Source: Bryoerythrophyllum caledonicum (lineage: Eukaryota > Streptophyta > Bryopsida > Pottiales > Pottiaceae). Taken from it: a DNA stretch of 64,000 nt. The stretch lies in assembly GCA_963971425.1 (NCBI GenBank), contig OZ020514.1:19875406-19939405 (forward strand). Reading direction: 5' to 3'. Each line of letters begins with the position of its first letter. Positions within the stretch are counted from its first letter, which is position 1. This document shows positions 4,115 to 42,159 of this stretch, piece after piece. Position numbers and translations under genes: made by a program. A model generated the notes under the pieces. That model was not told the origin of the DNA, made no database searches, and saw only the letters and a program-made list of their open reading frames with translations.

Positions 4115-5569
4115 GTTTCCGGACCCTGCTGGACATGTTTATTTTCTGCTGTAATTGTAAACTAAATCGACCCTGTTTATATTCTGCGTAGCCATTTTTT
4201 AACGTGGTTTGTGAGCGCTTTGCAATGATCGACATTGCGAAGAGCCAGACAACGCTCAAGAAAGCCGGAAAGGCGAAGGAGCTCTCGATTATGAACGAGA
4301 TAAAGATCATCACCGCGATCGATGAGACCTTCAAGCTCTGGTCGGATGCCATCTCTTTTGCGGCACAGGGCGACCCCATCAACGTCGATTCGACTTCAAT
4401 GCCCATGGCAAAGTTCAAGGACGCCAAGTCTTGGGTCTCGAAGAAGGATGGGGTGCTGACGCGCGAGTTCTTCAAGTTTATCGGCAACATGATTGAGGCT
4501 GATCACGCGAAAATGTATAAGCACATTCTCAATCGCTCAGGGCCATCGCGGAAATTGGTTTATCCTAAGGTGGTTGTGAAGCGGCCGTAATCTGTGCTCG
4601 AGGATTGCTACACTGCCCGGGACTAGGTCGATTGGAGGAAGAGGAAGGAGGTCGCTTGAATGGATCTTCAAGTGATCAGACCGGAGTTGGGCCTCTTCAA
4701 CAGCGCTAGAGCATACATTCGGGCCAACTAGTGGACGTTCAAGAAGGACTACAACGTCAGCAAGGCCTCAAAGCGTGCCCTCTTGGACTCGGGTCCACCA
4801 GATTTGTACTGCGCCAACTAGAGGCTGACGCAGTTTTGCAACTGCAGATGTGAAGATCTCTCTCCGTATACTAAGGAGATCTTCAAAGTCTTCCTCGATG
4901 TGCGGTCGCAATTTGTTCCACCTCAGGGGGCCTTGCACTTTTGTCCGTACAAGGCGGCGACAAATTTGCTCGGCACGTGGCCTTGGGATTCGTGGCGCAA
5001 CCAAGGCTGCAACATGAAGCTCGGCATCATCGACTTCTGAAACATCCATGGTTTCTCTCGGAAGGCAAAGTCGTTGTTGGAGAAGCCCTTCTTCGACGAG
5101 TTCATGACGATGTTCGCATCAAAAGGGCAGCCTCCCCTCACCAATCCTCCAGCTTGGCTTTTCAGTTGCGGCGACGAGCAATCCCAAATTCAAGTGAAGG
5201 CGTTTGCTGAGGGCCCCTCATTGTGCCATGGATACGATGTGTTGCAGTCGAAGTATCTTCCCTCCGAGAACGAGCACTTAAGGGGATTTGCCCCAAAGAG
5301 CAACAACGCTTTTGATCCTATTGGCCTCCTCTTCCTCTTCAGGAAAGAGCTCATACAGATCCCGGCTGTGAGAGAGACCTACGCTGCTCCGGAGCATGTG
5401 TTACACACCAAGATTCGCAAGCACAATAAGCTGGCGTACTCCATGAATATAAACGAGCTGAAGATGGAGTTCTTCATCAAGGTCCTGGAACTGTTTTGCA
5501 AGAAGGGAGAGGCAATTGTCCAGCCATTTGGCAGGACAAAATTACTAACGGCGAGTGTGGTAAGTTTTC

Positions 5570-5602
5570 CTATAGTTTAGCTCGAGTCAAGCTAAACTGT
5601 AG
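5570..5602. repeat. Intronic palindrome 3
   Basis: Arms CTATAGTTTAGCT and AGCTAAACTGTAG pair over 12 of 13 positions around a short loop. The motif starts 10 bases into intron 2, close to the donor site. Confidence 0.8.
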
Positions 5603-5670
5603 ATACCTTCCTGAGTCGTGCATTGGTTGTTTCACACTGGTCCTTCTTATGCTTTTTGTTGCGTGGAACT

Positions 5671-5689
5671 TTAGCTTGAGTCAAGCTAA
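5671..5689. repeat. Intronic palindrome 4
   Basis: A perfect 19-nt palindrome, TTAGCTTGA-G-TCAAGCTAA, in intron 2. Degenerate relatives (..GACCTAAA.. or ..GAGCTAAA..) occur near 5797, 6910, 8246, 8970 and 9042. Confidence 0.8.
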
Positions 5690-7009
5690 TGTGCCGGCTT
5701 AGACTTAGATGTTTTGATATAGATGTTAGAAATCGCGTCGTGTCCTTTGAAGTTGAGATTGCTAGGATTTAGTATCTATATTGCTTTGCATTCACTTTAA
5801 CTCAATTCGACCTAAACTGTTACTTATCTAATCCATTCGTGTGCAGATGTTGGATCTCGAGGCATTTTGCATCTTCCACGACACCGATGAGAAGACCTTG
5901 ACGACGCTGTAGAGGTTGCGTTGACGTTGAATCGGGCCGATTTTGTCGTAGGTGCTTATCATGTCAACGAGGAGATATTCCCCAAGCTTGGCATGGCCGT
6001 TGCCAAGGGGAATGGAAAAGCTAGTGTTGACCTCGTCGATGAGGAGGAAGATGTGGACCCGATCTCCCTGGTTGTGTGTTTGAGCTCGAGCAAGGCCACT
6101 TTGGATGATGAATCCCATGACGACTTCAATGACGCCACTCCGCCGAAGTTTCAGAGTGGCTCTCAATCTGAAGCGGGAGACACAATTGGTACCTTGCGGT
6201 AGCCACTTGAGTTCCCGGAGTTGGATTTGTTGGATATCTCCGAGAGGCCTCATTCAGCTCCCACCTTGGGCGGGTCATCCGCTCGGCCCGCGGCCAAGAA
6301 GAGGAAAGTCGCCAGCGCGAGCGACTGCTCTTCGTTGGCTACGACGAGCAACGCTTAGGACGACAACAAGTTGATCACCCTGGAGAAGAAGCTCGGAAAG
6401 GAGGCCACCCATCGGAGGTTGATAGAGCAGCGGCTGGCGGAGCGTGACAAGGAGTTGAGGAGCTTGCAGCGGAGGCGTGACGAGGAGATGAAGAGGGACC
6501 AAGACCAGAGGCATGCCGACATGATGCTCATGCTAGAGAGATTCATGTCGGCTAAGTTGCTTGCTGTCGCCACAACTTCACCCGTAGTAAATGTTGCGAT
6601 CTCCCAGCCTCCCCTCTCAGCAGAAGAAGGGATTGGGAGTCTGTCCCGCGATTCGCTGCTGCCGTCTCCAGCGGGTTCCTCCCCCGTCTACATGGGGCCT
6701 CAATCGCTTCCTATTTCTCCATCCTTGTCGAACTGCCCCTCTTCCCCTCCGAAGTCGCCCGCTCGGGACGTATCTGTCGTTGATGTCCCTAGCTCATCGT
6801 AAGATTAGTGTAACGTGGTTGCGAGTGTATAGACGCAGAACATTTTGTAAATGTCCGACTTTGTACACCAATTTTTTTGTAAATATTCCAGTGCTCAGTA
6901 AGCACTTCAACTCGACTCAAGCTAAACTTCTCAACATCTAACGACTCAGAATTGTATCACTGTCCTATGTGCGCATCTGCTGATAGGTTGAAGTTATTGA
7001 ACTTTTTCA

Positions 7010-8098
7010 GATCTAAGTTTCGGTGATAACGCGCGATCGCTCACCTGGTCATAGATGAGGTCGTCCAAACTACAGTCCCTGTCGTAGAAGAGGTCGTCCA
7101 AGCTTCGGCCGTGCTTGTAGACGAGATCAATCATGATTATGCTCTCCTGGAGCCACCTCTTCTTGTCCTGGAACCGTGCCCGCAAATGGTTGTCGGCCAC
7201 TCGGAACCCCTTGGCAGCATGCAGGGTTCGTTGGGATTGATGGGGGTCCGAGACGAAATGCTGCAAGACGATGAAGTTCTCGAGGTATTCTTATATCACT
7301 TTTCACTCTCCGCCATGACTCCTCCCCCTGTTTGTCTCTTTCGTTCTACATTTTATTGATCCGTCGTTGTGAATGAATCTATAGTAATATTGTTCTTTCT
7401 CTAGGCATTTTCGAACCAGGTCTGCGAGGCATCAATAAGTGGTGTCAGTAATATAGAAGAAATACCTAGAGTCCTATCAAATTTCGAGGGCATGTAGTTG
7501 AATTTTGTGCTCGACCTCAATGGGATTCTATGCACGTGTGAGCCGTCGTGGCAGGCCACGGGGTTCAGGAACTCTGACTTGTCCTTACACTTGGCTTTGC
7601 TGCCGACCAAAGTAGGCCCTAAACTAGTCCGAGTGCGCCTAAGTTGTGCTATATTCCTCACAAAGTTGTCTAAGTTTGCCATCATCACGATCTTGAGTTC
7701 AATGATGATATCTACAACACATCAGGTATGTAAATATCTTTTTCTGCATTGTCCTTCGTATCCTCTCTGGATCTTTGGTCAGAAGAATTGCGATAGGGTT
7801 CCCGAGCGTAGAGTCGGTACCAGAACAATCTATATGAAGGAATTTGGCACTCAGAAGGACATCTTCTTGAAGACCTTATCGAACCATCTCTTCAATAGGT
7901 TGGGTCGTGAGTATACTTCGGCGAATACGCTTGTCATTGACGACAGCCCGATTAAGCATATGCTCAATTTGCCGGAAAATGTCCTTCTTCTTCCATCATG
8001 GTCGCACAAACATGATGGCACGAGAGATAATTCTGTACTGCTGGAGGAATTGCTGCCATATCTCTCTGACCTTCATCTGCTTCCAAGTGGCCTAGCGT
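7010..8098 (+). pseudogene. FCP1/NLI-type phosphatase-like gene, disrupted
   Basis: Exon 7010-7284 encodes an acidic stretch (VVEEVVQASAVLVDEINHDY) and ends at a GTATTC donor. Intron 7285-7404 ends CTAG. Exon 7405-8098 starts AFSNQVCEAS, has a TAG at about 7494, then reads FVLDLNGILC, the DxDx(T/V) signature of FCP1-homology (HAD) phosphatases. The second catalytic Asp is Asn, so the enzyme would be impaired. Further on come FAIITILSSMM, WIFGQKNC, KEFGTQKDIFLKTL and an intact IDDSPIKH acidic motif near 7935-7960, all in the order known for plant FCP1-like proteins. The family dephosphorylates the RNA polymerase II tail or other phosphoproteins. No start codon is evident, the frame has one internal stop, and TAG TAA TGA close the exon. 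Confidence 0.65.
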
Positions 8099-8484
8099 AG
8101 TAATGAGCCGAACATCCCTCGGGCCGGGAGATGTTCTATAATGATCAGAAGACGTGCGGTCAGTCTGCGAGTATCTGGAACGCAATCCAAGCCTATCAGA
8201 ATCTGTGCTCCTAATGCCGTTGGAATCGCTTAAATCCTTATTACACTTTAGGTCGGATAGAGCTAAACTGTATCGATTTACTGCTGCTCCATTTTGTAAA
8301 TTTTGTTGGACCATTTTTTGTGTATGTATTTTTTTTTATAAATGAAACCGAGATGTTTTCCACTTTGTTTGTTGTACGGATTGGATACCTACTACTGATG
8401 GAATGTCGTCCTATTTTGAATGATTGGAGTATTCATCTATTGATTTGAGGTATGTGAGCGTCACTTTGGTTGAAAATTCTACAG
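8099..8484. other. Gap between FCP1-like gene and next exon
   Basis: There is no convincing gene here. It contains a degenerate copy of the intronic palindrome near 8246 and a T-rich tract ending in a splice-acceptor-like TTCTACAG, so it may be an intron or spacer. Confidence 0.4.
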
Positions 8485-9338
8485 GACTCTGACTGTCGGG
8501 CGTCTGTGGATTCCTTGCTGGGCCTAGAGGAGTTTGCCCTTTCCCTTCGGAGTAAAGGACTTTTATTGCACTCTACTGCAATCGCGCAGTCAACCATGGA
8601 TTATTCGACCATGGCAGTGGATGACGGAGTTGTTGAAAGCCCTATTGCGCGGGAGCCAATTCATGAAAGGAACAACTCACCTTCGCCGCAGTGGCCTCGT
8701 TTAGTTCCAGGGTCCCCGCGTCTAAATCCGGATAATTGTACTCCGGCAAAGCGTATTTTTTATGACGGTTTAAGGGATGCTACTTACCCACGCTCGCTCA
8801 CGGTGCGTGTTATGCTCGCCTCCAAGTTATTGCACTATTGAGTCCTTCTTGCCTAGGCAATATTGGTTTGTTGTTGAGCTACATTGCACTCATGTAGTTT
8901 TGCTTCATTTAAGCTTATTTTTATTTGTTGGATGTTAAACGTACTCTGTGAATTTACCCTTCAACATTTTAGCTCCATTTGACCTAAAGTGCACTAGGAT
9001 GGATCTTAATGATACAGTTCTCATGTGTGCCGTATATGAGTATTCGACCTAAAGTGTATTTGTTTGGATTGTATGTGGCATCTATTGTGTAGGAACGATC
9101 TGGTAAATGTCTCCGCCCCCGTATTCTCTTAGGAAGTACTGCTGGAAAAAAATGCTCTCTTTCAGCTCCCACCCGCCGCCACTCGCTGCACAAATCAAAC
9201 ACTGACGAGGAGCGTAGGTGGGGTTTGCGGAGTCTTCTAGATCGTCCATTAATGCAAGAAAATGGCGCAACATGGACTAGGCAACGTCAGAGGGCTTTTC
9301 TGAAGACTCATATAGAGGCTTATGGAGGAACTCCCTAG
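8485..9338 (+). CDS. Unknown two-exon gene next to the hAT insertion
   Basis: Exon 8485-8802 follows an acceptor TTCTACAG and encodes DSDCRASVDSLLGLEEFALS, then a Ser/Pro-rich region. It ends at CACG|GTGCGT. The intron is 8803-9092 (ends TGTAG) and contains two degenerate copies of the local intronic palindrome. Exon 9093-9338 is open, rich in Arg/Lys (RQRQRAFLKTHIEAYGGTP), and stops at TAG. The hAT element begins 37 bases later, in the presumed 3' UTR. No family is recognised, and upstream exons may lie within 8100-8484. The exon structure is inferred only from splice-like sites and open frames. Confidence 0.4.
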
Positions 9339-9366
9339 ACCATTTAATTAATGATAGGACGATTGT

Positions 9367-9374
9367 GTTTTGCC
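9367..9374. repeat. Target-site duplication, left (GTTTTGCC)
   Basis: The 8-bp sequence GTTTTGCC precedes the terminal inverted repeat at 9375 and is repeated exactly after the other end at 21323-21330. Eight bases is the standard duplication length for hAT transposons. Confidence 0.95.
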
Positions 9375-9539
9375 CATGGTTGTCATAACCGACGAGTTGA
9401 GGTGATCGTACGGGACAACCAGACGGGTGGTCCGGATCGGAAGGACGGACGGTTCGGACGGATTGCCTGAAGTGCGCCCAATAATTTTTTGCAAGTAAGA
9501 AATTTTTACTATGATGGCAACGTCACATTTGGACGTGTC

Positions 9540-9668
9540 ACGCCACCGTGGCAGTAGGGCGGGGACGTCTCCATGAGGAGCGGGGACGTCTCCGCCCGGG
9601 GGCGTGGACGCCGCCACTAGGGACGGGGACGTCCCCGCCCCTCATGTAGGCGTCCCCGCCCCTGCATG
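9540..9668. repeat. Subterminal GC-rich GGGGACGTC cluster, left end
   Basis: Five or so copies of GGGGACGTC(T/C)CCGCCCC-like units, including the palindrome GGGGACGTCCCC, sit 165-295 bases inside the transposon end. hAT transposases typically bind short subterminal repeats, which is the probable role here. Confidence 0.8.
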
Positions 9669-9889
9669 ATTGAGCGGGAAGACATTAATGTGTGGAAGCA
9701 AAATATGTTTATTACATTAAATCATTTCACGATATAACAACAATTTCCTGATTTCATACTTCCAAACCAAGTAATATTGGCGCTAGTTATCTAAGAAACC
9801 TTTTTCTCTCCTAGCTTCCTCTATGAATTATCACAACTCTCTTGATTTGGCATACATATACATACTTACTTTTCTTCTCCTTTAATTAT

Positions 9890-12800
9890 TCAAAGGGCCA
9901 ATCTACGCACTCCTTCGGTGGACGGGCCACCCATAATCGCATCTCGAAGGACAATAGCATCATCATCTCGTGCCTCATCGCAATCTGGACGGTTGTCATC
10001 ATCAGCTCCTTCATCGCTCTCATCTTCGTATTCTTCATTACTACCATCCGTAGTCCAAAAGCCCTCTACTTCAGAGTTGTCATTGCAAAGCTCTACAACT
10101 GTTTCACCATCGCAACGCGAAGGTCTGAATCTCTTTTGACGATGTGCGTGAGGATCATTGCCATTGGAATTTATGGTTGGGCCGCCTGTAGGACGAATTG
10201 CTCGATTCGGAACAACAAACGCCAGAGTTGTTGAAGAGCGTCTTGGAACATTCGTGTCCAGAAATGATTGAACAACCACGTTCGGATCTCGTGCCCCTAT
10301 TCCAAGGAGGGGACGTCTACAAAGCCTTGAGGATGATGCTTTGCCGTTGTTTCTTCCTCCACGGCCTCTAGCCGCTCTACGGGCATTAGTCCTTCCACTA
10401 CCTTGTTGATATTGACCCATTGGATGAATTGGCCCCGCTCTAGCGGCCAAAGGAGGTCTGCTATTTCTGGCAATAGTAGCGAAAGTGTTTAGACGCGCTC
10501 CCTCAACGCCTACACTTTGTTGGAAAGGTCCATACATGGCATTCGCCGTTCTAGGAGAAGAGGAATTCCGGGAAGGCGGCCTTGGTGTATTCTGGTCATT
10601 AATAATAGTAGGCAACACCACAACCGGAGATGGTTGTGGCTCAAGGTCCTCTGTGAATGCAAAAGCATCAGAGGCGTCTACATATTCCGGGTAAGAACGC
10701 CTTCGCTGATTAACAACCCTTTCATTTCTTGGAGCCGTCCCTACAATTGTTGTGTTTTCAACATTTGCGTCAGAGTCTCCTTGAACGACTCCATTGCTAC
10801 GAAATGATGCACCTATTCCAATAGGGCTCCCCTGACCATACTAATTTTCAACCAATCTCTGGTTGTTTCGAGTTGCAGTATTTTCTGCGTTCACTCTGGC
10901 TCCGTTGTTGTCGGCATCTCCATTTCCACCTCGATAATCTGATGGGGAACTATCATCGTCGCGAACGTTTCCCGACATTGCCCCCCCCATGTTTCACGCT
11001 CTTCAAGGTTAGTCACATTTAGGATGTTGCTCTCTGAGGAAGTAGACAAAGGATGTACTTCATGAATGCCCTCATTTTGAGAAAGATGAGGCGAAGGACT
11101 ACAACGAGGACTTTGATTCCAAGGTCCCCAACGACCTTGAGCCAATTCGGCCCCTGGTCTTCGTTGAAGGCATCGGCTATTGGTATAAATATAGTCCTAC
11201 ATATTGATGAAGGCATCGGCTATTGGTATAAATATACCAAAATCGATTAGTAGCGGAAAAGGCCCCTGGTCTTTGTTGAAGGAATCGGCTATTGGTATAA
11301 ATATATACCAATGACGCAGCCTTTTCCGCTACTAATCGATTTTGGCTCTTGTTGTGGACAAACAAATACATACTCCAGTTTTGTTCGCAAGAGCTAGTTG
11401 AACACGTAAGGGCTAGAATACGAACAGCTATTTTAGACAAAGCCTTGTCTGCGATCGTGGCCCACTATGGTGGAGATGAAGCTTTGTCTAGCGGATGTTA
11501 GATGCCTCGGTAGGGCCATATAGTCTTGTGCCCTGGTCGTACTTTGTTAACTCATATTGGACGTCGTCATAAGAGATGTCCAATACCGCCATCATTTTGC
11601 GAACAACCCGATTCAATGCTCTTTGTGCGATTCTGTCAGCCCTAAGCGCCACATTATCCTTGAGGTACGGATTCAAAAGAGCCACGGCGTAGTGAACATC
11701 GGTAAAAACCATTGGCCATCGGGCATCAAAAGATTGCTCAAGAGTGGATGCTATGTCAGCTCGTAGAGTAAAGGGTGACTCTCTCAAAGAGTACACGTGT
11801 TCTCGCAAATTATGCATCACGAGCCATGCACAATCCATGGCTGGTTCTCGGCCATCAAACACATGCAATGCCTTCAAAACATCCCCAGTCATGTGCACGT
11901 AATTCTGACATCGTTGCCAAAAGGCCACATCTTCGATGGTGTGCACCACATTACGCGAAGCGGTTACTGCTTGCTCTCCATTATGTTTATTCCGTAGGGT
12001 TGCAAAGTAGTTCACAACATGGGGGTGGTCTTTGAACTGCTCCAACACTCCTTTGAGTCTCATCAATCGATCCAACATAAGAAAATTACAAGCAAAGCGG
12101 GTTTCACTCGGCACTACAATATGGAGGTTTGGACTCAACTCACAAAGTGTCCCCATTGTCACATGATGGTTTCTAATATATTGGCACAATTTCTTTGCCT
12201 TCTCTATAAAATCTTTAATTTCTTGGACCTTTGCCCAATCTTCCAACATGAGATCCAATGCATGTGCCATGCACCCCTGCTTGTGAATGTGAGGGTATGT
12301 GAGAATAATATCATCCATCGCTTCAAGCATGTTGGCAGCATTGTCTATACAAATGTGTGTCACATTCTTTTTACCGACCTTCTCAATGTAAACTTTCACT
12401 TGGTCCACTATGTACCGCATGGGCTTCTTTTGAGCATTGGTGTCTATGCTCCCCAAGAATACGTCATCAGTGAGGCACGACATCATTAAATTCATGAGGG
12501 GCCTCCGGTTGACATCATCCCAACCAACCGCGCATATCAACACCCCATTATTCTTGATTGCAAAACCAAATTTGGCTTCAATCTCTTTCTCAATTTGCAA
12601 CCTCTTAGGTTCAATCAATCTAGTCCTCAACTGGTGATATGAAGGAGGAATGTACTCAAAATTTGCTACAGATGTTGCCCTCACCGCATCGATGAACGCC
12701 TGATTTCACGCCACATTAAAAGGCACATTCGCCTAATAGAGAAAGGTCGCCCACTTCTCATCAAGTTCCTTCCTCTTTGCAACGTTAAAAGCATCAAGCA

Positions 12801-13269
12801 TCCGTTGTTGATGTAGTTGCCCAGATCTAGTGGAATTCGAGGTGGTAAGACCACCCGACACATGTGAAGGGTCCTTTCCTTCAGAGAGATTAGGCACTCC
12901 TTCCCGAGGCCCACTTGTTACCCCACCCGCCACATTATTTTGAGCGTCGGATTGGCTTGAAGTGTCAATAGTTGGTGCCCTCGATGGACCACTTGGACCT
13001 GAATCTCCGCTATACATGTCCCCGCCCGTCATTTGTTGCAGAATAATGTTTCCACAGTTGGCAAATCGATGTCGCACATGGGGAGGTAGGCTACGACAAA
13101 TCGACCTCTCTGACTTGGCTCCATATTCAAAGTGAGCGCACGCACGCTCACATTTGTAGCTAATAGTAAAGTTGCAGAAAACACAACTCACTATGCCCCC
13201 CTTGTCACCAAAATTGTACCAAGGTTCCCATTCTTTTGTTTGCTTCCTTTGACTACCCATTGCATTCAC
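9890..13269 (-). pseudogene. hAT transposase (BED finger, DUF659, dimerisation domain), disrupted
   Basis: Reading from ATG 13269: a BED zinc finger near 13195-13070 (CVFCNF..CAHFEYG), a low-complexity linker, then LHQQRMLDAFNVAKRK and, after in-frame TAG (about 12734) and TGA (about 12697), ANVPFNVA..NQAFIDAV and the DUF659/RNase-H-like core (PPSYHQLRTRLI, ICAVGWDDVN, HICIDNAANM, GCMAHALDLMLEDW). A frameshift separates the core's end (11488) from the C-terminal dimerisation domain at 11440-11280 (AVRILALTCSTSSCEQNWS, then LVYIYTNSRFL). A Gly/Asn-rich and acidic tail seems to continue to about 9890 after a local rearrangement. Family knowledge: cut-and-paste transposase acting on the terminal repeats. 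A TATA-like TATAAAAG lies near 13520 on the minus strand. Confidence 0.85.
11167..11343. repeat. Local repeat/inverted-repeat rearrangement in the transposase
   Basis: The string ATCGGCTATTGGTATAAATAT occurs three times with small changes. A 25-bp arm (starting AAAATCGATTAGTAGC, about 11238-11262) recurs as its exact reverse complement at about 11319-11343. The block lies at the end of the dimerisation domain and breaks the frame. Confidence 0.85.
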
Positions 13270-13519
13270 GGCTTATGCCAAATACCCCCGGCTTCTCTCG
13301 TCTAAGCCAAAATATAAGGCTAGTTCTAGTTTAGAATTGGGTGAAAAATCAGTTGTGATAGCGCTGGTGCACTGCTTGAACCAATTTTTACATCACCTCA
13401 GCCGCACACCAGTGGCGCCTGCAACCCAAGTAGACTCGTAAGGAGCTCAAACTGAATTGAGGTCCAAGGGATAGAGGCCAAGGTGATGAGCGTGAGCACA
13501 AACCGCCCTCCCCGATCCT

Positions 13520-13620
13520 TTTATACACAAGACAAGTACGGGTGGGACCTGACGCGCCAAGGGCGGGGACGTCTCCGCCCCTGCGTGGGTATGGGCGGGG
13601 ACGTCTCCCCAATCCAGGAG
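13520..13620. repeat. Internal GC-rich cluster upstream of the transposase
   Basis: Two copies of GGGCGGGGACGTCTCC lie about 300 bases upstream of the transposase ATG, next to a minus-strand TATA-like TATAAAAG. The same motif forms the subterminal clusters of this element, suggesting a promoter/operator bound by the transposase or a leftover element end. Confidence 0.75.
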
Positions 13621-13624
13621 AAGG

Positions 13625-13880
13625 AGGCCTTTGGGGCATTTTGGGTGCTTAGGCACTCCTCCTCTCCATGGAGAGGGTGGAGGTTTTAATATAGGGTGCC
13701 TTACTTTTGGTTACGACGAGATTGCAACGCACTCAAAATAACAAGCAGATTATGTCTAGGAAGGAAGGCTAAATGGAAAGTACGACTTTTGTCCTTTGAC
13801 GGGATGCTCTCCAATAATGAACACCTTTATTAGCTCCTTATTAGTTTTGGGGCGGACATAAGAGACTAGAAATGAATGCA
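13625..13880. repeat. Upstream module, copy 1 (direct repeat with 15185-15450)
   Basis: About 250 bases are clearly homologous in order and sequence to 15185-15450. Shared landmarks are GAGGCACTCCTC.TCTCCATG, TATAGGGTGC.TTA.TTTTGGTT, GCGGATTATGTCT or similar, ATGGAAAGTAC, ATGCTCTCCAATAA and TTAGTTTTGG.GCG.ACATAAGAG. Each copy lies next to a GGGGACGTC cluster, on the side away from the gene. Confidence 0.85.
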
Positions 13881-13920
13881 CCACTTGCCATAGGAAATTG
13901 GAAAAATATTGAAAGATTAT

Positions 13921-14149
13921 GCAAGTCCCCATCCATAAGGGGTAGTATAAGCTTCTAGTAGAATGTGATGTGCAAGATCTCTAAATAAAAACTTCAAACA
14001 CAAGTGCCCCACAAAAGATTAGGAATGTACCACATACCATTAAAAAAAATAAAAATCAAGTAGTGAATAGCATGGGAGCTATGCAAGTCCCAATCCATAA
14101 GGGATAGTACAAACTTCTAGTAGAATGCAATGTGCAAGTTCTCTAAATA
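13921..14149. repeat. Pair of ~70-bp direct repeats
   Basis: Units at 13921-13990 and 14078-14149 share GCAAGTCCC.ATCCATAAGGG, TAGTA.AA.CTTCTAGTAGAATG and TGTGCAAG.TCTCTAAATAAAA. They lie in the noncoding stretch between the transposase and the next gene. No other feature was seen in 13881-14257. Confidence 0.85.
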
Positions 14150-14257
14150 AAACATACCATTACAAACAAAAAGGATATTTAAAATCATATAATGTTTAGA
14201 GAAAAGTATTGTTTGCAAAAAAAATTTGCTACGTCCTTAACCTATAAATACTCCTAG

Positions 14258-14911
14258 TCAGTAGTAACGTTGGTGAAGGGCTCGTTTGTTCCTCCTCAGC
14301 CTACTACGTGCTTGTGCCTTTTCGCTTGCGACTTGGACTTGGATTCCGTCGGAGTCTGCATCTGAACTCAACGTGTTAGTATCGTAGTTGGGTGTGTCGT
14401 CCATCACAGTCATGAATTTGCCCAATCCACCTCCAGATACTTGTGCCATCCCATAGGAATTATTCCATATTCTGGGCGAGGAATTTTTTTTCCCCGGCAT
14501 CGACTTCAGAGTGGACCAATCCACTCTCTTGCCCAACTTCACCTCCGCATGAACACCCCACGCAATGAAGAGATTTACTTCATTGTGTTTGTTGAATGGG
14601 ACTTCGTACAACACCTGGTATATTTCAATGCACCGACTTTTAAACGCCTCGTCGACACAGTGTTTCAGGTTTGCCTTGTGGAAGCGTCGGTGATAGTTGT
14701 GTCGCTCCTCTAGGAAAGCCTTGTTGATGTGGCACCACTCGATGAAGTTTGCGCAATCATCAAAACTCCATGGCTCCTGTACGTCTTCCCAACCTCGAAA
14801 AGCCAACTTCGCGGGATTACGAAGAACGTGCAACCGATTCCAATGGGCGTTCACCGCTCGTGCACGGGTCTTGCCTTTCTCCTCCTTGGCCAATTGTCCG
14901 GGTGAAGACAT
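14258..14911 (-). CDS. 217-aa hAT cargo protein, paralog of the RING protein's N-terminus
   Basis: Chosen start MSSPGQLAKEEKGKTRAR at 14911 is the first ATG of the conserved part; the frame runs upstream into GC repeat sequence, so longer starts are unlikely. The protein has a basic N-terminus, then RGWEDVQEPWSFDDCANF, HNYHRRFHKANLKHCVDEA, CIEIYQVLYEVPF and VHAEVKLGKRVDWSTLK, followed by an acidic Ser/Asp-rich tail and a basic end. The middle 110 residues match the first part of the coiled-coil/RING pseudogene at 16370-18620 closely. No known family is recognised. It is intact, unlike its neighbours. Its upstream DNA holds a GGGGACGTC cluster and the duplicated upstream module. Confidence 0.6.
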   Translation of the reverse strand: MSSPGQLAKEEKGKTRARAVNAHWNRLHVLRNPAKLAFRGWEDVQEPWSFDDCANFIEWCHINKAFLEERHNYHRRFHKANLKHCVDEAFKSRCIEIYQVLYEVPFNKHNEVNLFIAWGVHAEVKLGKRVDWSTLKSMPGKKNSSPRIWNNSYGMAQVSGGGLGKFMTVMDDTPNYDTNTLSSDADSDGIQVQVASEKAQARSRLRRNKRALHQRYY

Positions 14912-15054
14912 GGTTTGCACGTGTTGAAGCAAAAATCTGGCGTGGATGGATGAATAAAGACCTCGCACGACGCCAACATCCAGCTCAATGAAGAGATGGA
15001 TGGATAGGAGTATGCGAGGCGGGAACAAATGAAGACTTTCTCCATTAAAATAGT

Positions 15055-15180
15055 AATCCGGTAGGGGCGGAGACATCCCCGCCTCTGCCTCGGTAGGGAC
15101 AAAGATGTCTTTGCCCCACAGGGTAGGGGCGGGGACGTTTGTTTGAATTTTTTTGGGGGGGGGACGTCCCCACATAACTC
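15055..15180. repeat. Internal GC-rich cluster upstream of the 217-aa gene
   Basis: Degenerate GGGGCGG(A/G)GAC.TCCCCGCC and GGGGACGTCCCCAC units, the same type as at the transposon ends, lie 145-270 bases upstream of the gene start at 14911. Confidence 0.75.
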
Positions 15181-15184
15181 TTGA

Positions 15185-15450
15185 AGGAGCGTTTGAGGCC
15201 ATTGTTGCTTGGCCGAGGCACTCCTCATCTCCATGCGGCGGGTGCACAATTAAATATGGGGTGCATTATTTTTGGTTCCGACAAGATCGTAATGCACTTC
15301 AAATAACACGCGGATTATGTCTTTCCCTAGTTCTAACCTAGGAGGAAGGCGAAATGGAAAGTACAATTTTTGTACTTTGATGGCATGCTCTCCAATAAGG
15401 AACACCTTCATTAGCTCCCTATTAGTTTTGGAGCGAACATAAGAGTGTAG
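15185..15450. repeat. Upstream module, copy 2
   Basis: This is the second copy of the module described at 13625-13880, in the same orientation and about 1.57 kb away. It includes a TATA-like ATATTTAAT on the minus strand near 15250. Confidence 0.85.
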
Positions 15451-15499
15451 AAAATTATTTCCTTTCAATTTTTTTTTAAAAAATCTTGTCTTTAGTGGA

Positions 15500-16110
15500 A
15501 AATAACGCTTCAACCCCAGTCAAAGATTTTCACATATTGCCACACATTGTCGGGCAAGGTACCAAAAACAAAAACGTCTTACCACATAAAACTTAGAGAT
15601 TTTAACTATTTATACTTTTGATTTTTTCCACAACAATATGTGGTGTAGACCTTCATATTGACCGTTTGGATCATCAATCTGATACATATCAAGTATTTAA
15701 AAACTAAAGCGTTAATTGGCCATTTTTGAGCTTCCACTACTAGCATAGTTGACTTGAATAAGGTACACCCTTTTTCTACCTCTAACAATTGGTGTACAAG
15801 GAACTAAAATCATCCTAAAATACCATTAGTAATGGATTTAGGCCTTATGTTGTGCAAAAATTTGATACCAAGTGAAGTTAAAGTGTCTTGATCCACCAAA
15901 CGTAGGGAAGAAAATGAACCATTTGCTTGACTTCAAACACTAAAATCTTTCAATCCGTGCGATCAAAGTTTATGAAATTTTGTAGGGACATTAACAAAGA
16001 AGTATTTATTGAGATCCTACGGTTAGATGTAGAAATAAAAAGGTTTTGACTCCCTACTTAGGCATTATACTGTAGCCCGGCAATTTTGAAGTGTTTTTGG
16101 TGCAAAAATG
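15500..16110 (+). repeat. Noncoding interspersed repeat, copy 1
   Basis: The stretch is homologous, in order, to 48540-49110. Shared strings include CACATATTG or ACATATTGTTGGGCAAGGTA, AACTTAGAGAT.TT, AATTGGTGTACAA, ATGAAAATGAACC and CCTACGGTTA. It has no open frame. It may be a remnant of an unidentified element inside the hAT. Nothing else is seen between 16110 and 16369. Confidence 0.75.
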
Positions 16111-16369
16111 CCTTGGTCCTTTAGGGATTAAAAATGTTTGGAGGTTTAAAACTTGGTCCACACCATTTTTTTTTATACAAATGCACAAATCCTTATGAGG
16201 CTTACTTACATCCATAATCACACCACTATTATCAAGTAAAGAAGAGACTACTATTCATATTATTTTACTAAGCATAATGTAGTACAAAAATGGGAAAATA
16301 CATTAAACGCTAGAAGATATAGCATTGTAAGAAAAATGTCTCTTGGTACGGCAAAAACAAAAAATACAC

Positions 16370-18620
16370 CTAGTCAATATTCATCGGGCTATTAGTAGTG
16401 CCACTCGCCCCTGCCTCGTTGTTGTGTGCCCCTACATGCATTGGGAGGTCTTCATCCGAGCCCAATACAAGTCTACGAGACGCCGATTGTGTTTTCCTCG
16501 CTAGTCCATCTTCATCCAACACAGCCCATAGGATTTAGGATTGCATGAGCTGGTAGAGCGCTTGCCGTGTATCTGGACTGTGCACATTGAGCAAGAAGTC
16601 GATTCCATCATTTCGGAAAATTTCTTTCCACTCTGATTCCGATAATTGCCTTAGTTCTTGCGGGTCCGGTTGGTCAACGTCGTGAGAAATGCGATCCTCA
16701 TTGTCGTTTGTGATGCGAACTCCGTCAACGGCCCACAACCATTGCCGTGGATGAGGTCCAAATCGAAATTGCTCCCCGTTCTCGTCCCAATGGCCATTAA
16801 AGCATTGGTAGAAGAAATTTTGTTTTCCTTGACCGTATTTGTCCTTTAACGGGATCAAATTCTTGCACACCCGGACAATCTGCTTGGGGTCCCTTTCCCA
16901 ACCCCACTCGTTTGAGAGATGCATCTTATCCAACGAGTGCATCTTTAGTTTCTAGCTCCACACCAAATCCTTTCCCCACATCTGTGATTGATCAGGGGCG
17001 TTCGTCATATTGAACTCCCTATACGGGGGCACGTATGGAACTAATCCAAAAAGTTCGTACAATCGCTCCTGGAAAGGGGCCTTGCACAATGAGCACCGCC
17101 AGCGTACAACCATCAAGCTAATCAAGCAAAATGGATGGTACAAGTGCTCACAAGTGCCTAGATGCATCCCACATTCTGGACCAAATGGGTTTAGACAAAT
17201 CGAGCAAGTCGTACCGTCGGATACAAAGCTCGAAGGTTGTGGCCACAATAACATGGGGTTGCCCCGATGGTCGAGGATGGATGAAACCTCCTTTTTGAAA
17301 TCCCAATTGTAACGGGACCAATCGATGGTTGTTTGTCCACCGGCGGTCTTTACCATTGCCATTTCATCCATCTTGAAAAGATCATCTATGAGGGCCCACG
17401 ACGTCAAACCAAACACCCTCTCTTGGTTGTTTTCGGTATAGTTGTTGTCGATTTTTTGGAATTCCGCCACCAATTGTCGGGATTGATCGACCGTGAAGAC
17501 GCACGCTAACTTCCATCGATAGTAATGTTCTACCAATACATCCAAGCAACTTTGTAGTCTTGAATTCTCTTCAAGCGCTTTAGCGAGCTCTTTGCCGCCG
17601 TCACCTTCTTCTTTGTTGACGATAGCTTTGTCTGCATTGGTAGGGGCCTCGTCAAATGACAATGAATTGTCTTGGGTTGACACGTGTACAAGCCCTTTCT
17701 CCTCCCGTCGTGGATTTCGATCTTCTGTGGTCATTGTACTAGCTTGTAGCGCAAGCCGGAGCTCCTCTATAGCACGTCGTTGCTGGTCAATAACAATGTT
17801 TTTGTCATTGACTTCAACTCTCAACTTGCGAACCTCATCGTGCAATGACAATAGTTCTGTCCTCTTCCCTTCCAATTGGTTCAGCAAGGTTTGGATAGTG
17901 TCGGCAAAACTAGCACCAGTAGAGGCTTCGAACATTCGATCAACAACCGCGGGGGATTGCATCTAAGCTACAACTTCATTAATGGTATTGTTAACAACTA
18001 CGTTAACCATCTGTTCCGCCCTCCTTCGTTTGGTGCGCGCTTGTGTCTTTTGGCTCCTTGTGATTGAAACACAGGATTCGTCAAAGTTTTTATCCGTGTT
18101 TGAGGGATTGGTTTCGTACGTGTCGACCGGTTCACTCTTCGCCATCAATTTGACCAATCCACCTTCTGGATACCTCCGAGTCCCCATTGGAATCAATCCA
18201 TTCGCCGGAGAAGGAACTTTTATGCAATCTCCCATTGCTTTCAAGGTGGACCAATCCACCCTCTTGCCCAACTTTACCTTCGCGTGGACACCTTGCGCAA
18301 GGAAGAGATTTACTTCATTGCGTTTGATATATGGAATGTTGTACAAGACCTGGTATACTTCAATGCACCAATTTTTGAACGCCTCGTCGGTATACTTCCA
18401 TAAATTTGCCTTGCAAAAGCGTCGGTGATAATTGTGTTGATCCTCTGGGAAGCCTTGTCGATATGGCACCACTTGCTGAAGTTTGCGCAATCCTCGAAAC
18501 TCCATGGCTCTAGAACTTCTTTCCAACCTTTAAAAGCACATGCAACCTCTTCCGCTGTTTGTTTCCCGATGGTAGTCGACTCTTGTCACGTTCTTCTTTA
18601 TTCATTTTTATCGGCGTGGC
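16370..18620 (-). pseudogene. Coiled-coil RING-H2 protein (hAT cargo), disrupted
   Basis: The N-terminus (MNKEERDKSR.. at about 18612) lacks a segment present in the 14258-14911 paralog, and a one-base deletion near 18450 shifts the frame. From there one frame continues to a TAG at 16370, cut by TAG (about 17964), TAG (about 16948) and TAA (about 16537). Order: shared N-terminal domain (VKLGKRVDWSTLKAM), basic linker, coiled coil (17900-17700), Trp-rich region, and a RING-H2 finger at about 17215-17085 with CSIC, C-x-H-x2-H-x2-C (CEHLYHPFC) and CSLC. A C-terminal domain follows with CFNGHWDENGEQFRFGPHP and an Asn/Ser-rich end. RING-H2 domains recruit E2 enzymes for ubiquitin transfer. It is divergent from the kinase-like gene across a GC-rich spacer. 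Confidence 0.7.
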
Positions 18621-18784
18621 ATGGGTGGGGAAAATCAGAATAACGTATGTGATGCGAATGGATGAAGTCCTCACACGACGCCCACAACCAACTCAATTAG
18701 GAGGTGGATGAAGAGGGAGCATGTGAGGCGGGGACAATTAGGGGCGTGCACGATATTATATAGCTGATAGACGAAGCACTAGTC

Positions 18785-18925
18785 TAGGGTCCACGGGCTA
18801 GGGCGGGGACATCTCGGCGGGAGGGGCGGGGACGTCTCCGCCCCTCCCGCGGGGACGTCCCCGCTCCTGCTCGAATAGGGTGGGGACGTCTGTGCCCCTG
18901 CCCGTGTGGAGCGGGGACGTCTTCA
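18785..18925. repeat. GC-rich cluster in the bidirectional spacer
   Basis: At least five GGGGACGTC-type units, including CGGGGACGTCCCCG, lie between the divergent RING and kinase-like genes. The minus-side flank (18635-18735) resembles 14930-15030, that is, the upstream DNA of the paralogous gene. Confidence 0.8.
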
Positions 18926-19079
18926 CAAAAAGTTAAGGAAACCACATAAATAGGGGACTTTTGTCCTTATTCTCTACCAAGTCCACTCCCTAGGCCTCAC
19001 GTGTCAGTTCGCTTTGCGACCTGAAAGTGAGTTCCGTGGGTGGTCGGGCTTGGCCCATAAATGCACCCAGAGTCTTTGC

Positions 19080-19100
19080 AGTTTTTTATAAAACCATCAA
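19080..19100 (+). promoter_or_regulatory. TATA-like element before the kinase-like gene
   Basis: A TTTTTTATAAAACC string ends about 45 bases before the ATG at 19140. Spacing would fit a very short leader. It is a sequence match only. Confidence 0.4.
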
Positions 19101-19139
19101 CTTGGAATTTCGACCACGATAGGGAGTTGACTATCACGT

Positions 19140-20687
19140 ATGGCGGGAGAAGGAAGTAGGTCGATGGAGAAGCGCCCTCAATTTATGGATATGGATGATG
19201 TGGGTGAGACGGTGCTTCCGTCCACCAATACAGAGTTGATGTCGGGATCATTGAATCCGTCGTCATCGAGCGGGAAGAGGCGGAAGAAGTCACCAAATTC
19301 GGACATCCCCTCGCACAAATACATGGTTGAATGTAGAGGGATTGCCGTCGAGTTTTACAACCGCCAAACGAGAGGGGCATTGATGAGGAGCTATTTGAAC
19401 CAGATTGAAGAGGGATACCACAAGTTGACAGTTGACATGGGACACGAATTAATGTCAAACCTTGATAAATCTAAGAAATTTAATAATTTCTCAGATTATT
19501 GGTTGCAGTCGGAGTGGTTGGACACACAAGTGACCGCACTAACCACCAATATTATTGCGAACTGGTGTTACGTCACAGAGAAGAAGGAGGATGGAAGCAA
19601 TTGGAACATGGAGGAGAACGCACTGGTGGCGAAGATGAGGATGATCTAGGGCTTCGTTCAACAATACTCTTCTTCCCGTAAGAAGAAACTGGCTCATTGG
19701 AAAGCAACTATTGAGGAGCAAATTTTGGCTCACTGCGTCGGTGGAACTTTCAAGTGGCTTGAAAGTTGCACTAAGGTGATTCCAATGCCAGGACAGAAAG
19801 CGGTGGGTGGCTATGGGGTTGTACGAAAGGTGATGATAACCAAATTGGAAAACGTTCCAATTTGGATATACTTTGCCGGAAAGACTCTGACCAACACCAA
19901 CGAGAGGGAGAAGCGCCAAGACATCATCAACGAGGCTGGAGGGTGTCCGATGGTGCATCTAGGGATCATTAGACTTGCGTACATCCACCCGAAAACTATG
20001 GAAGGATACACGCTCAGCTGGAATGGGGGATCTCTGGCTTCTTTTTGGTCCAAGTTTGACTGGAAAGTGGACAAAGCATTGCCGTTTGAACAGATTGAGA
20101 TGCATCCAAATACCGGGTTGTCAATCCAAGAGCTTCGGTGGGTAAAAGCTTACCGCAAAAATCGAGTGAACCTCGCGCTATCGTTGCTTGTCATTGTGGA
20201 GAAATGCCACGACGCGTATTATATACACAATGACATCTCTCCATCAAATGTTTTGCTCCACTTTGATGAGTGGAAACCCGATACGATGTACGTAGGAATT
20301 TTTAATTGGAGGCTTTCTAGTCTGGTTGTGGAGAATGAGCCATCAAGGTATGGTTATGAATTCAAGGAGCAGCTTCAACTTGAGAGAGAGTGGCAATGAT
20401 TTGTGGCACCAGGTCTGTTCTATGTTTTTGGGCCGTGGGACTCCACCAACTCGCTTGAAGTCATGCAATGGTCACACCTCTACTCCAAGGCAGCAGATGC
20501 ATTTGCGGTGGGTTGGATTTGTTCTCGCAGTTGGAAAGAAGAATGGGACACTTTGTATTTCACCGCCAAAAACACGAAGCAATATCTACACCTGAAGCTA
20601 CACTTTGTCGGGTTGCAAAAAGATGTGAAAGAACAGTCTTCTGTGCCAGATGTTATAGACACATTAATGAAACCCCCGTACGGCTAG
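19140..20687 (+). pseudogene. Protein-kinase-like hAT cargo with degenerate DFG motif
   Basis: One frame of 515 codons from ATG 19140 to TAG 20687 is cut by TAG at 19647 and TGA at 20397. The N-terminal 150 residues hold a basic RRKK signal and an unknown helical domain. A kinase fold follows: glycine loop GGYGVVRKV (about residues 222-230), a lysine in YFAGKT, a glutamate in IINEAGG, and the catalytic loop HNDISPSNVLL (H363, D365, N370). The DFG equivalent is NWR (N389), so the magnesium-binding Asp is lost and the product would be a pseudokinase, unless that change is part of the decay. An activation-segment-like GYEFKEQLQLE and a C-lobe with FVAPGLFYVFGPWDSTNSLEVMQ follow. It lies between the GC cluster and the right transposon end. 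Confidence 0.7.
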
Positions 20688-21322
20688 ACTATGCCTCTAT
20701 GTTGTTACCGACAATAGTTTTTTGTTAATTAGTTGCATTAGTTTTGCATGTGGTGGTTAAGTAGGCGGTACGGCATCTTTGTAGAAGAGTATGTGAACTT
20801 GGAAATTGCCATACCTCTCATTTGATCAATTTTGGATACGTCCAAATTTTAAATTTTCAGTCCGAGATTTGCATTTCTTCACGCACAAATAATTGGGTAT
20901 AAATATTTTCTTCACATATAATATGTCAATGCGAGGCTATCAACCTAGTACACATGTGAACCGCTCTAATTCAAAGTAAAAAATTCTTGCAAGACTCTAT
21001 CGATAGTTAAAATTGTACACCCTCCAAATTCCACAGTTTTCACTACCAATTTCCTGTAACTTTAAACACTATAATCTAACCCATGAAGGGGCGGGGACGT
21101 CTCCGCCCCACCTCCCTCTTGGCATTAGTCCCCGCCCCTACTCAAACATGTCCATGTCCTGCGTGGCAGCAATGTGGTGCCAACATGGCTGCCACGTCGC
21201 CTGTCTTTTACCTTGCGGTTAAGTCAACCCTTTGTTGACTGTATCGGATGGGCGAGAGCTCTACCGGACGGGCGAATCGAATGGACGGGCGAACCGGACG
21301 TCCGTCCCTTATGACAACTCTG
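20688..21322. repeat. Right end of the hAT element with subterminal GC-rich repeats
   Basis: There is no gene. A GGGGCGGGGACGTCTCCGCCCC unit lies at 21089-21110 and a weaker one near 21130. Next come direct repeats of GGACGGGCGAA and CCGGACG, and the terminal TTATGACAACTCTG. The terminal GGACGGACG / CGGACG-rich zone is mirrored at the left end (9410-9460). Confidence 0.8.
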
Positions 21323-21330
21323 GTTTTGCC
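21323..21330. repeat. Target-site duplication, right (GTTTTGCC)
   Basis: Identical to 9367-9374; it marks the right boundary of the hAT element. Confidence 0.95.
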
Positions 21331-32499: not shown

Positions 32500-33440
32500 T
32501 ATCCTAACCTACCTCCGTTGATGAGAGAAAGATTTTGTTATTACAAAGGCCACGTTCCGCAACAGATGACACTCGAAGAGATGGTTGTAGGAGATTCAAT
32601 TCCAGGAGGTCCATCTAAAGCAACATATTTTGATAAATCATGTTAATCTGTTGTATAGAATGAAGACACAAGGGGAGTCGCAAGCCAGAATCTGGAAGAA
32701 GGGGCTAACCTTTCTGCACAAAATGACCCGTTACATTGGTCTAGTAGTGTAGTTTCATCAAACTCCATGAGATCTGGGTCCATGCATCAAAGAGGAATAG
32801 AAGATGCCTTTGCATTGCAAAGAGGAAGGAGTTGGACGGTAAGTAGGCATCTTTTTTCTATATGGCAAATGTGCAATTCAACATGGCGAGGCAACTTGCC
32901 TTCATTGAAGACGTGAGAGCAATATTTGTGGCAAGGTTTAAATACAATCCCACTTCTTATTACCAGCTGAGGACTAGATTCATTGCCCCAAAGTGGATGC
33001 AAATTGAAGGGAAGATTGAAGCCAAAATTGGTTTTGCGGTTAAGAACTACAGGGTTACAATATGCGCTATGGGTTGGGATGTTGTTAATTGGAGGCCCCT
33101 CATAAATGTAATGATTTCATGCCCCGCGGGCGATGTATTCTTGGAGAGCATTGACACTAGAATGAAAAAAAATCCATGTGCTACATTGCAGACCAAACTA
33201 AAGTATTTATCAACAAGGATGGTTCCATGTATGTAACGCAAGTTTGTACTGATGATGCCGCAAACACGCTTTGAGCAATGAACAACATCACTAACACGTA
33301 CCCTCACAATTCCAAGCAAGGATATTTCGCACATGCGTTGGATCCCATATTGGAAGATTGGGCCAAGGTCCAAGAATTCACTTAATCATTCAAAGACTTG
33401 ATTGAGTGGTCGAAAAGATTGTGCTAGTGGATAGAAGTCA
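32500..33440 (+). pseudogene. 5' part of a second hAT transposase
   Basis: The plus-strand frames are homologous to the transposase at 9890-13269. QQMTLEEMVVGDS and SNSMRSGSMHQRGIEDAF match LQQMTGGDMYSGDS and the SGQLHQQRMLDAF region. After a frame change, YYQLRTRFIAPKWMQIEG, TICAMGWDVVNWRP and DVFLESIDT match the DUF659 core. Similarity continues to LEDWAKVQE near 33380 and stops at about 33440. The BED finger is missing, several stops are present, and the copy is older than the 9-13 kb one. Confidence 0.75.
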
Positions 33441-41500: not shown

Positions 41501-41744
41501 ACCGATGGTAGCTTTGTAGGTCTCCAAGAATTAAAGAGAATATAGAAATTCAAAGAAAGTTCTAGAGGAAAAAAGAGGCAGTGTCTTAGTAAATCAAAAA
41601 AAATGTCAGCCCCTATATTAGAATTGTCATTGGGATGTTATACCTCAAAATGAAAGTTTTTAATAAATAGTTTTGGTTATTACAAACATTGAGGCACATA
41701 TGTTTTAAAATTTTATGCTCCTCATTAATACCAAAGGTGACGAT

Positions 41745-42144
41745 AACGACAACGCCTTGAACAGAGACGTCTCCACCCCAACAATAACGTCTACACCCTA
41801 AACAGGGACGTCTGCGCCCCAACGATAATGTCCACACCCAAAACGGGGACGTCCCCGTCCAACAATAACATCCATGCCCTCGATAGTGATGTCCGCGCCC
41901 CGACAATAAAGTCCGCGCCTCAACGCTGACGTCCCTGCTTTATTGGAAGTATCAACGTTGGACTTTAGTCCACCATGGAACAACATGTCATGATGTCACG
42001 TACAGACATGTCATTTATAGCCAACTATTTCATCCTTGAACAAATTACTGTGTATTCAACAGACAAACCGTCCAGTCCATCCGCCAGCCTGGTCTGATAT
42101 GTCCATCCAATTTGCGCCTTGATTCGTCCTTTATGACAACCCCA
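41745..42144 (+). repeat. Right end of the second hAT: subterminal repeats and terminal inverted repeat
   Basis: Tandem degenerate units such as AACGGGGACGTCCCCGTCC and GACGTCTGCGCCCCAACGATAAT (41755-41945), about 26-52 bases long, correspond to the GGGGACGTC clusters of the first element. The end reads GTCCTTTATGACAACCCCA. Its reverse complement GGTTGTCATAAAGGACG matches the first element's termini. The 5' end of this copy was not found. Confidence 0.75.
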
Positions 42145-42159
42145 AATGGCGGGTGCGAT

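Follow-up and report, generated by a model that had tools for sequence, protein, structure and literature searches.

The stretch of DNA analyzed here (the window) comprises 64,000 nucleotides of Bryoerythrophyllum caledonicum contig OZ020514.1 (assembly GCA_963971425.1, positions 19,875,406 to 19,939,405). Between positions 9375 and 21322, the window contains a unit of ~12 kb with hAT-like ends and a perfect 8-bp target site duplication. The unit carries four genes, in the order transposase (− strand), a gene encoding a 217-residue protein (−), a RING gene (−), and a kinase gene (+). We refer to the last three as “cargo.” The window copy is broken, with in-frame stops in the transposase, RING, and kinase genes; the 217-residue frame alone is open. 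Here, we describe the unit, its relatives elsewhere in the genome, and the possible functions of its cargo. We conclude that the window copy is an old, broken member of a multi-gene hAT family, and that this family probably represents a lineage of hATs whose accessory genes are conserved.

Ends of the unit

The left terminal inverted repeat (9375–9388, + strand) is CATGGTTGTCATAA, and the right one (21309–21322, − strand) is CAGAGTTGTCATAA when read inward, i.e., from 21322 to 21309. Each is flanked by the same perfect 8 bp, GTTTTGCC, at 9367–9374 on the left and 21323–21330 on the right. We scanned the whole window for terminus pairs with ≤2 mismatches in a 10-base core, an equal offset of 0–9 bases at both ends, and a perfect 8-bp flank. 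A single pair was returned, 9375/21322. Both the reading of the ends and the scan confirm a first-pass annotation, made from the letters alone, that had reported these termini and their duplication. The left ends of four copies (the window copy and copies C9, C6, and C15, described below) read CA[TG]GGTTGTCATAA; the right ends are of the same type, with one to three changes.

Genes of the unit

The broken transposase gene (9890–13269, − strand) has a frame layout that comprises an N-terminal part, a DUF659 domain, a hAT dimerization region, and a long tail. DUF659 scores 107.9 bits in the window transposase against a cut-off of 34.7 (4.9e-31; within 11488–12684). The dimerization region (PF05699) is recognized in C9, at 27.9 bits against a cut-off of 21.4, and lies near 11.4 kb in the window transposase. 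In C9, the transposase is a single frame of 1178 steps, one internal stop included. Among the frames scanned, the N-terminal transposase frame has no Pfam match, including to the BED zinc finger; to our eye, it is BED-like in look. Judged by these domains, the gene is a hAT transposase. Just past the dimerization region, a local duplication (11149–11345) that includes a perfect inverted repeat of 27 bp disrupts the window transposase. Two further pieces of related sequence occur in the window: a diverged transposase-related fragment at 32555–33376, with 69.7% identity to 12220–13043, and a truncated related element at 39690–42145, which retains a C-terminal stretch of transposase, four GACGTC motifs at 41.77–41.93 kb, and the terminus TTATGACAACC (42131–42141).

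The RING gene (16535–18605, − strand; the start, about 18605, is our reading of the sequence) encodes an N-terminal domain, a coiled coil, a RING-H2 domain, and a C-terminal part. In the window, it is broken by in-frame stops and by a frame change within the N-terminal domain, as seen from split tblastn matches. The complete protein, as found in relatives and in other copies, has all four parts in 761–820 residues. Indeed, three relatives from other sources are single RING chains of 761, 806, and 820 residues that begin with the N-terminal domain. The first-pass annotation had named a coiled-coil/RING-H2 protein here; the RING is present, and the reading frame on which the name was based is the middle of this longer protein. 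The open frame of the 217-residue gene (14258–14911, − strand) is a stand-alone relative of the RING protein’s N-terminal domain, with 77% DNA identity over 398 aligned bases. This accounts for a duplicated pair among the cargo that had been reported: the duplication is real, but consists of the RING N-terminal domain recurring as the 217-residue gene. All eight zinc ligands of a C3H2C3 RING-H2 domain are invariant in eight aligned rows, the best PDB profile match is RNF24 (5.5e-07), and a precomputed RING label is attached to 2/7 relatives. In its zinc ligands, the domain has the pattern of RING-H2 E3 ligases.

The kinase gene (19140–20687, + strand) contains two in-frame stops in the window and has lost the catalytic CDWG, which is replaced by FNWR. 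Among 10 aligned relatives with 38–62% identity, the lysine, the DWG, and the asparagine of the catalytic loop are present in all 10, and HND in nine. The C9 kinase retains all four elements, i.e., the lysine after the glycine loop, HxD, N, and DxG. A precomputed protein-kinase label is attached to 16 of the 17 kinase relatives, and the structure model has a kinase fold with a mean predicted local distance difference test score (pLDDT) of 77. Going by these residues, the family has what is required of an active kinase, and the window copy is without DWG. Just outside the C15 copy, a 465-residue open frame (L032, 281–1678) matches the kinase family at 36%, which suggests that a second, distant family also bears a kinase.

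In PDB profile searches, the kinase matches vaccinia-related kinase 1 best, if weakly (VRK1; 2e-05), and this is what might suggest a virus–transposon hybrid that acquired its RING and kinase genes from a large DNA virus, as other giant elements have done. Despite the name, VRK1 is cellular rather than viral, and scans of IMG/VR with the RING and kinase families gave 40 and 17 pattern stretches, respectively, none of which was confirmed as a relative. A viral origin is therefore very improbable.

Other copies in the genome

A search of the source assembly, which spans 437 Mb in 894 contigs, yielded three further copies whose four genes match those of the window copy in kind, order, and orientation. 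C9 is complete, at 12,944 bp, with a duplication (GCCTAGAT) that matches at 8/8 positions. C6 (12,119 bp; GCTATAAG/GCTGTAAG) and C15 (12,253 bp; ACCCTTTG/GCCCTTTG) have duplications that match at 7/8 positions. Four complete copies with hAT ends, duplications, and a common gene order indicate that the unit has moved as a whole, and its structure points to the hAT transposase as the enzyme that moved it. We are nearly certain that this is a mobile multi-gene hAT unit. The window copy also aligns without a break to C15 over element positions 4679–11518 (88.8%) and to C6 over 5683–11247 (89.1%), which speaks against piece-by-piece insertion of the cargo; we conclude that the window copy did not acquire it in this way.

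Movement in one piece is what the first-pass annotation had proposed, with chance nesting as the alternative, i.e., two unrelated hAT ends that happen to flank separately inserted genes. The window is repeat-rich, and a segment inside the unit (15486–16059) is related to dispersed repeats, as chance nesting would lead one to expect. Nonetheless, we reject chance nesting, given three further copies in the same order with duplications of 8/8, 7/8, and 7/8, cargo intervals that align unbroken between copies, and, in a contig of different origin, a RING gene that adjoins an end of this kind (see below). The annotation had suggested looking for duplication-flanked copies with an identical gene set and order, and these three copies are what such a search returns. 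It had also named two outcomes that would speak against it: copies without any cargo, and cargo segments inserted separately. What we see instead is that all four loci with a long transposase match carry a match to the 217-residue gene or RING N-terminal domain, and that the cargo is continuous between the window copy, C15, and C6.

Those four loci come from a reading of left ends. The left terminus has 19 exact matches in the genome, compared with 10 for a reversed control pattern. Besides the window, 11 left-end loci were read with five gene queries, nine of them over 20 kb and two (C2 and C10_8.3) over 10 kb; seven of the 19 sites (two each in C10, C12, and C15, and one in C14) fall outside this reading. 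One of the 11 is the complete copy C9. A transposase match of >300 residues occurs at 4/11 loci. Within the stretch read (≤20 kb), these have a match to the 217-residue gene or N-terminal domain in 4/4 cases, to the kinase in 3/4, and to part of the RING gene in 2/4. C1_32 has transposase and 217-residue matches, with none to the RING part or kinase in the stretch read. C1_38 has transposase, N-terminal domain, and kinase matches, which may belong to a neighboring copy because they lie 11–19 kb inward. At the other seven loci, gene matches are scant or absent: C1_28.5 has transposase fragments alone; C4_1.13 has a kinase tail alone, within a short form of ~2 kb with a 6/8 duplication; and none of the five queries matched in the stretches read at C1_45.29, C1_45.45, C6_29.1, C10_8.3, and C2_22.3. 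These seven loci neither support nor refute a cargo-bearing family.

A search with the RING protein (P0005) gave 59 near-full-length scored rows, the best-scored of 3818 first-look candidates and not counting the window’s own copy. Fifteen are without an internal stop and 44 have at least one; some are likely duplicates on small contigs (e.g., three with equal score and stops). C6 and C15 were picked from the 15 stop-free rows and are therefore uninformative on how often cargo is lost.

A RING gene and terminus of this kind outside the genome

A scan of GTDB contigs with the RING family gave 19 pattern stretches, one of which was confirmed; a scan with the kinase family gave 47, none confirmed. 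The confirmed contig, L001, is filed under a cyanobacterial metagenome-assembled genome, and we read it as a eukaryotic contaminant. It contains an open RING gene of 801 residues, with 37% identity to that of the window in the best segment, preceded by a GACGTC array with 21-bp spacing and followed by the terminus CAGGGTTGTCAAAAAGGACGG. The match to the window spans the RING gene, arrays, repeat, and end. Since this RING gene lies beside the same kind of terminus, the association predates the copies in the source genome. L001 also contains a short repeat in inverted orientation, once within the contig (816–910) and once just outside the element end (4832–4906), which is likely a small separate element.

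GACGTC arrays

Motifs of the palindrome GACGTC recur at five places in the window copy: the left subterminal array (9557–9661), upstream of the transposase (13560–13610), upstream of the 217-residue gene (15060–15175; one exact, the rest with mismatches), between the RING and kinase genes, which are divergently oriented (18795–18926), and in the right subterminal region (21087–21142). C9 and C15 likewise have short arrays, which lie close to the ends, ahead of both the transposase and the 217-residue gene, and between the RING and kinase genes. Exact motifs are fewer in the window copy, with a single one before the 217-residue gene and a single one in the right subterminal block; in C6, the position of the right array falls in a masked stretch. 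GACGTC occurs 15 times in the window copy, 23 in C9, 19 in C6, 27 in C15, and seven in L001. The corresponding first-order Markov means are 1.7, 2.0, 2.2, 2.4, and 0.7, and the highest of 200 Markov counts are 7, 7, 8, 8, and 4. Similarly, the longer form GGGGACGTCYCCGC, counted on both strands of a near-palindrome with ≤2 mismatches, has 27 matches in the window compared with 0.19 expected by chance, 24 in the unit and three in the related element end at ~41.8 kb. Few GACGTC motifs lie in coding stretches (3/15 in the window copy, 3/23 in C9, and 3/27 in C15), although these make up 62–66% of the copies. At all eight left ends that came with sequence, the window’s included, at least one GACGTC lies ≤0.4 kb inward; simple arithmetic with equal base frequencies predicts ~0.1 for a stretch of this length. 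Spacing is mostly 29–33 or 20–23 bp, with two cases of 42–43 bp, which we read as close to whole helical turns.

Subterminal repeats of hAT elements are known transposase sites. Because the motif here also precedes internal genes, the cargo appears to be tied to the element’s own control. We considered whether the internal arrays could be relics of fused elements; a scan with ≤3 mismatches saw no internal termini beside those of C15. Two similar upstream blocks lie nearby on the − strand, one upstream of the 217-residue gene (15216–15453) and one at 13651–13872. The AT-rich noncoding segment at 15486–16059 is related to dispersed repeats at 46624–46863 and 48531–49069. We rejected an independent insertion of this segment into the window copy, since it lies inside a stretch common to C6 and C15, whose alignments cross it. 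In the unit and in L001 alike, this repeat, whose family also includes L001 466–1444, lies directly upstream of a GACGTC array.

Maintenance of the cargo

The first-pass annotation described the cargo as full-length. This holds for other copies: C15 has open frames for the 217-residue gene (218 codons), RING (761), and kinase (526), C9 has an open kinase frame of 516 residues, and C6 an open RING frame of 761 residues. It fails for the window, where RING and kinase are broken. We compared copies by the ratio of nonsynonymous to synonymous substitution rates (dN/dS), with bootstrap ranges. The ratio is 0.27 [0.14–0.51] for RING (C6–C15), 0.54 [0.37–0.75] for the kinase (C15–window), and 0.39 [0.26–0.61] for the 217-residue gene (window–C15), compared with 0.54 [0.36–0.78] for the N-terminal 573 codons of the transposase (window–C15). 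The window RING gene is represented by 60 codons in the bootstrap set; in a companion set, which is without a row for the window 217-residue gene, it has a ratio of 0.42 over 726 codons. All cargo genes thus have ratios <1 in the better-resolved pairs, comparable to the first 573 transposase codons. By these codon comparisons, the extra genes show the signature of purifying selection.

This selection bears on whether the cargo consists of passengers, i.e., three host genes captured by a Pack-like hAT, useless to the element and decaying. The broken RING and kinase genes of the window, the stops in 44/59 of the best-scored RING rows, and the left-end loci without any cargo match are what decay would produce, and plant hATs are described as capturing fragments of genes (PMC8903248). 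Passengers should not, however, have ratios whose ranges exclude 1 for RING, kinase, and 217-residue gene in the better-resolved pairs, 15/59 best-scored RING rows without a stop, an end motif that recurs before the cargo genes, or a RING gene beside such an end in L001. We consider passenger cargo unlikely.

Alternatively, RING and kinase could be selected for a benefit to the host, with the hAT only spreading them. Both are typical host signaling domains, and selection on proteins leaves the beneficiary unspecified. The many similar copies, most with stops, and the motif-linked upstream regions fit genes that serve the element better. Moreover, in the stretches read, one such frame lies outside a copy (the kinase-like frame beside C15, at 36%), and no search for host loci was made. 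Benefit to the host has, in our view, a low probability, and it is likely that the cargo serves the element.

The window copy has the features of an old member of the family. With masked letters excluded, it diverges by 10.4% from C9 and 9.9% from C6, compared with 2.3% between those two copies. Along its branch, changes of the C>T/G>A type outnumber T>C/A>G changes (362 vs 201), and the former are frequent at CG (126/362) and CHG (67/362) sites, which make up 20% and 11%, respectively, of cytosines in C9. This bias would be expected of a methylated, silenced copy of the plant type; methylation does not account for the 419 transversions that also fall on this branch. We rejected another genetic code as the source of the in-frame stops, given the C>T/G>A excess and the sense codons at these positions in other copies and relatives. 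Lastly, the 217-residue gene of the window has a dS of 0.30–0.33 from other copies, compared with 0.10–0.11 for the transposase, and this larger value hints at exchange between subfamilies.

Possible mechanism

If the cargo serves the element, a mechanism can be sketched. An element-encoded protein, either the transposase or the N-terminal domain common to the 217-residue and RING proteins, may bind the GACGTC arrays, in which case transposition and element transcription would answer to one factor. The RING protein would be an E3 ubiquitin ligase that is directed to the element, and a partner would be phosphorylated by the kinase. Jointly, the two might oppose host silencing or tune the level of transposase. 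The 217-residue protein, as an N-terminal domain without a RING, could be an adaptor or a brake. A role in anti-silencing in particular is a possibility that we hold tentatively. Somewhat more doubtful is the full scheme of a self-governing hAT, in which a single type of palindromic motif marks the two ends as well as the gene promoters, the N-terminal domain/RING protein and the kinase target the arrays, and ubiquitin and phosphate remove or block silencing, as a counterpart of VANDAL/VANC (see below) that works by post-translational modification.

Several observations weigh against a conserved, functional set of accessory genes. Ubiquitination, phosphorylation, array binding, and anti-silencing are all steps that we infer. 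The RING domain falls below Pfam cut-offs in the proteins scanned, and the structure predicted for the RING protein is of low confidence (mean pLDDT 51). L001 has a cysteine for one RING histidine and no Pfam match; it shows one end only, in 4.9 kb without a transposase or kinase match. The duplications of C6 and C15 have one mismatch each, and 200 bases are masked near the right end of C6. C1_54 holds the full gene set in order, but its two ends share no duplication; it is probably a composite, because its RING end is doubled and its flanks are unmatched. Co-location of the kinase is known only from the loci read, i.e., the window, C9, C6, C15, C1_54, and C1_38. No copy read has all four genes open: the transposase frame is interrupted in C15, the kinase has three stops in C6, and in C9 the RING gene shifts frame near its end and the transposase has a stop. 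The dN/dS ranges also include 1 for the kinase in C15–C9 (0.52 [0.24–1.20]) and C15–C6 (0.72 [0.34–2.22]), and for the 217-residue gene in C6–C9 (1.09). The transposase tail is looser than the first 573 codons, at 0.50–0.79, with most pair ranges including 1. More generally, pairwise dN/dS between copies blends selected and neutral time, and young pairs give wide ranges.

Relation to known elements

Plant hATs are usually regarded as one-gene transposons. The unit resembles the hAT superfamily (Ac/Tam3 type) in its 8-bp duplications, short terminal inverted repeats, dimerization region with DUF659, and subterminal repeats. It differs in its size of 12–13 kb, its four genes, its transposase tail of several hundred residues, and the palindromic motifs that also precede internal genes. 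Our search of the open-access literature found no description of a plant hAT whose cargo includes a RING or kinase gene. In the available text of a review of giant eukaryotic transposons (PMC6431247), the whole word “hAT” does not occur.

Accessory genes on hATs have already been published for fungi, and the RING/kinase/217-residue set is a variant of this theme. According to Kojima (2025, PMC12730594), fungal DNA transposons, including a hAT group, bear TET/JBP genes as accessories, and genes for a transposase, TET/JBP, and an alpha-kinase follow a conserved order in IS3EU elements. The TET+ hAT7 and IS3EU elements thus share with our unit the carriage of accessory enzyme genes by a DNA transposon. 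The hAT7 duplication is 7 bp, in contrast to 8 bp here, and the cargo here is a RING protein, a eukaryotic-type protein kinase, and a stand-alone relative of the RING N-terminal domain. Among the frames scanned, we found no Pfam match to TET/JBP.

The nearest worked precedent for the proposed mechanism is, by analogy, VANC of the VANDAL elements (MULE). According to Hosaka (2017, PMC5735166), VANC anti-silencing proteins target short motifs, often in tandem, in introns, intergenic regions, and terminal regions. The likeness lies in the combination of accessory gene(s) with tandem motifs in noncoding parts, the GACGTC arrays being candidate targets. The superfamily, motif, and proteins differ, and hypomethylation belongs to VANC as presented there, whereas the likeness here is one of sequence. 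The VANC domains DUF1985 and DUF287 had no Pfam match among the frames scanned. Pack-TYPE hATs also have hAT ends around non-transposase coding sequence; according to PMC8903248, they are non-autonomous and carry gene fragments, unlike the unit here, with its transposase gene and full-length conserved genes.

If our reading is right, a high-copy hAT family with a conserved RING ligase and kinase constitutes a natural experiment on host silencing or dosage control. Open frames are at hand for testing, and the arrays predict where an element protein would bind. Elsewhere in the window, frames at 56875–59329 read like the reverse transcriptase and integrase of what we take to be a Ty3/gypsy element.

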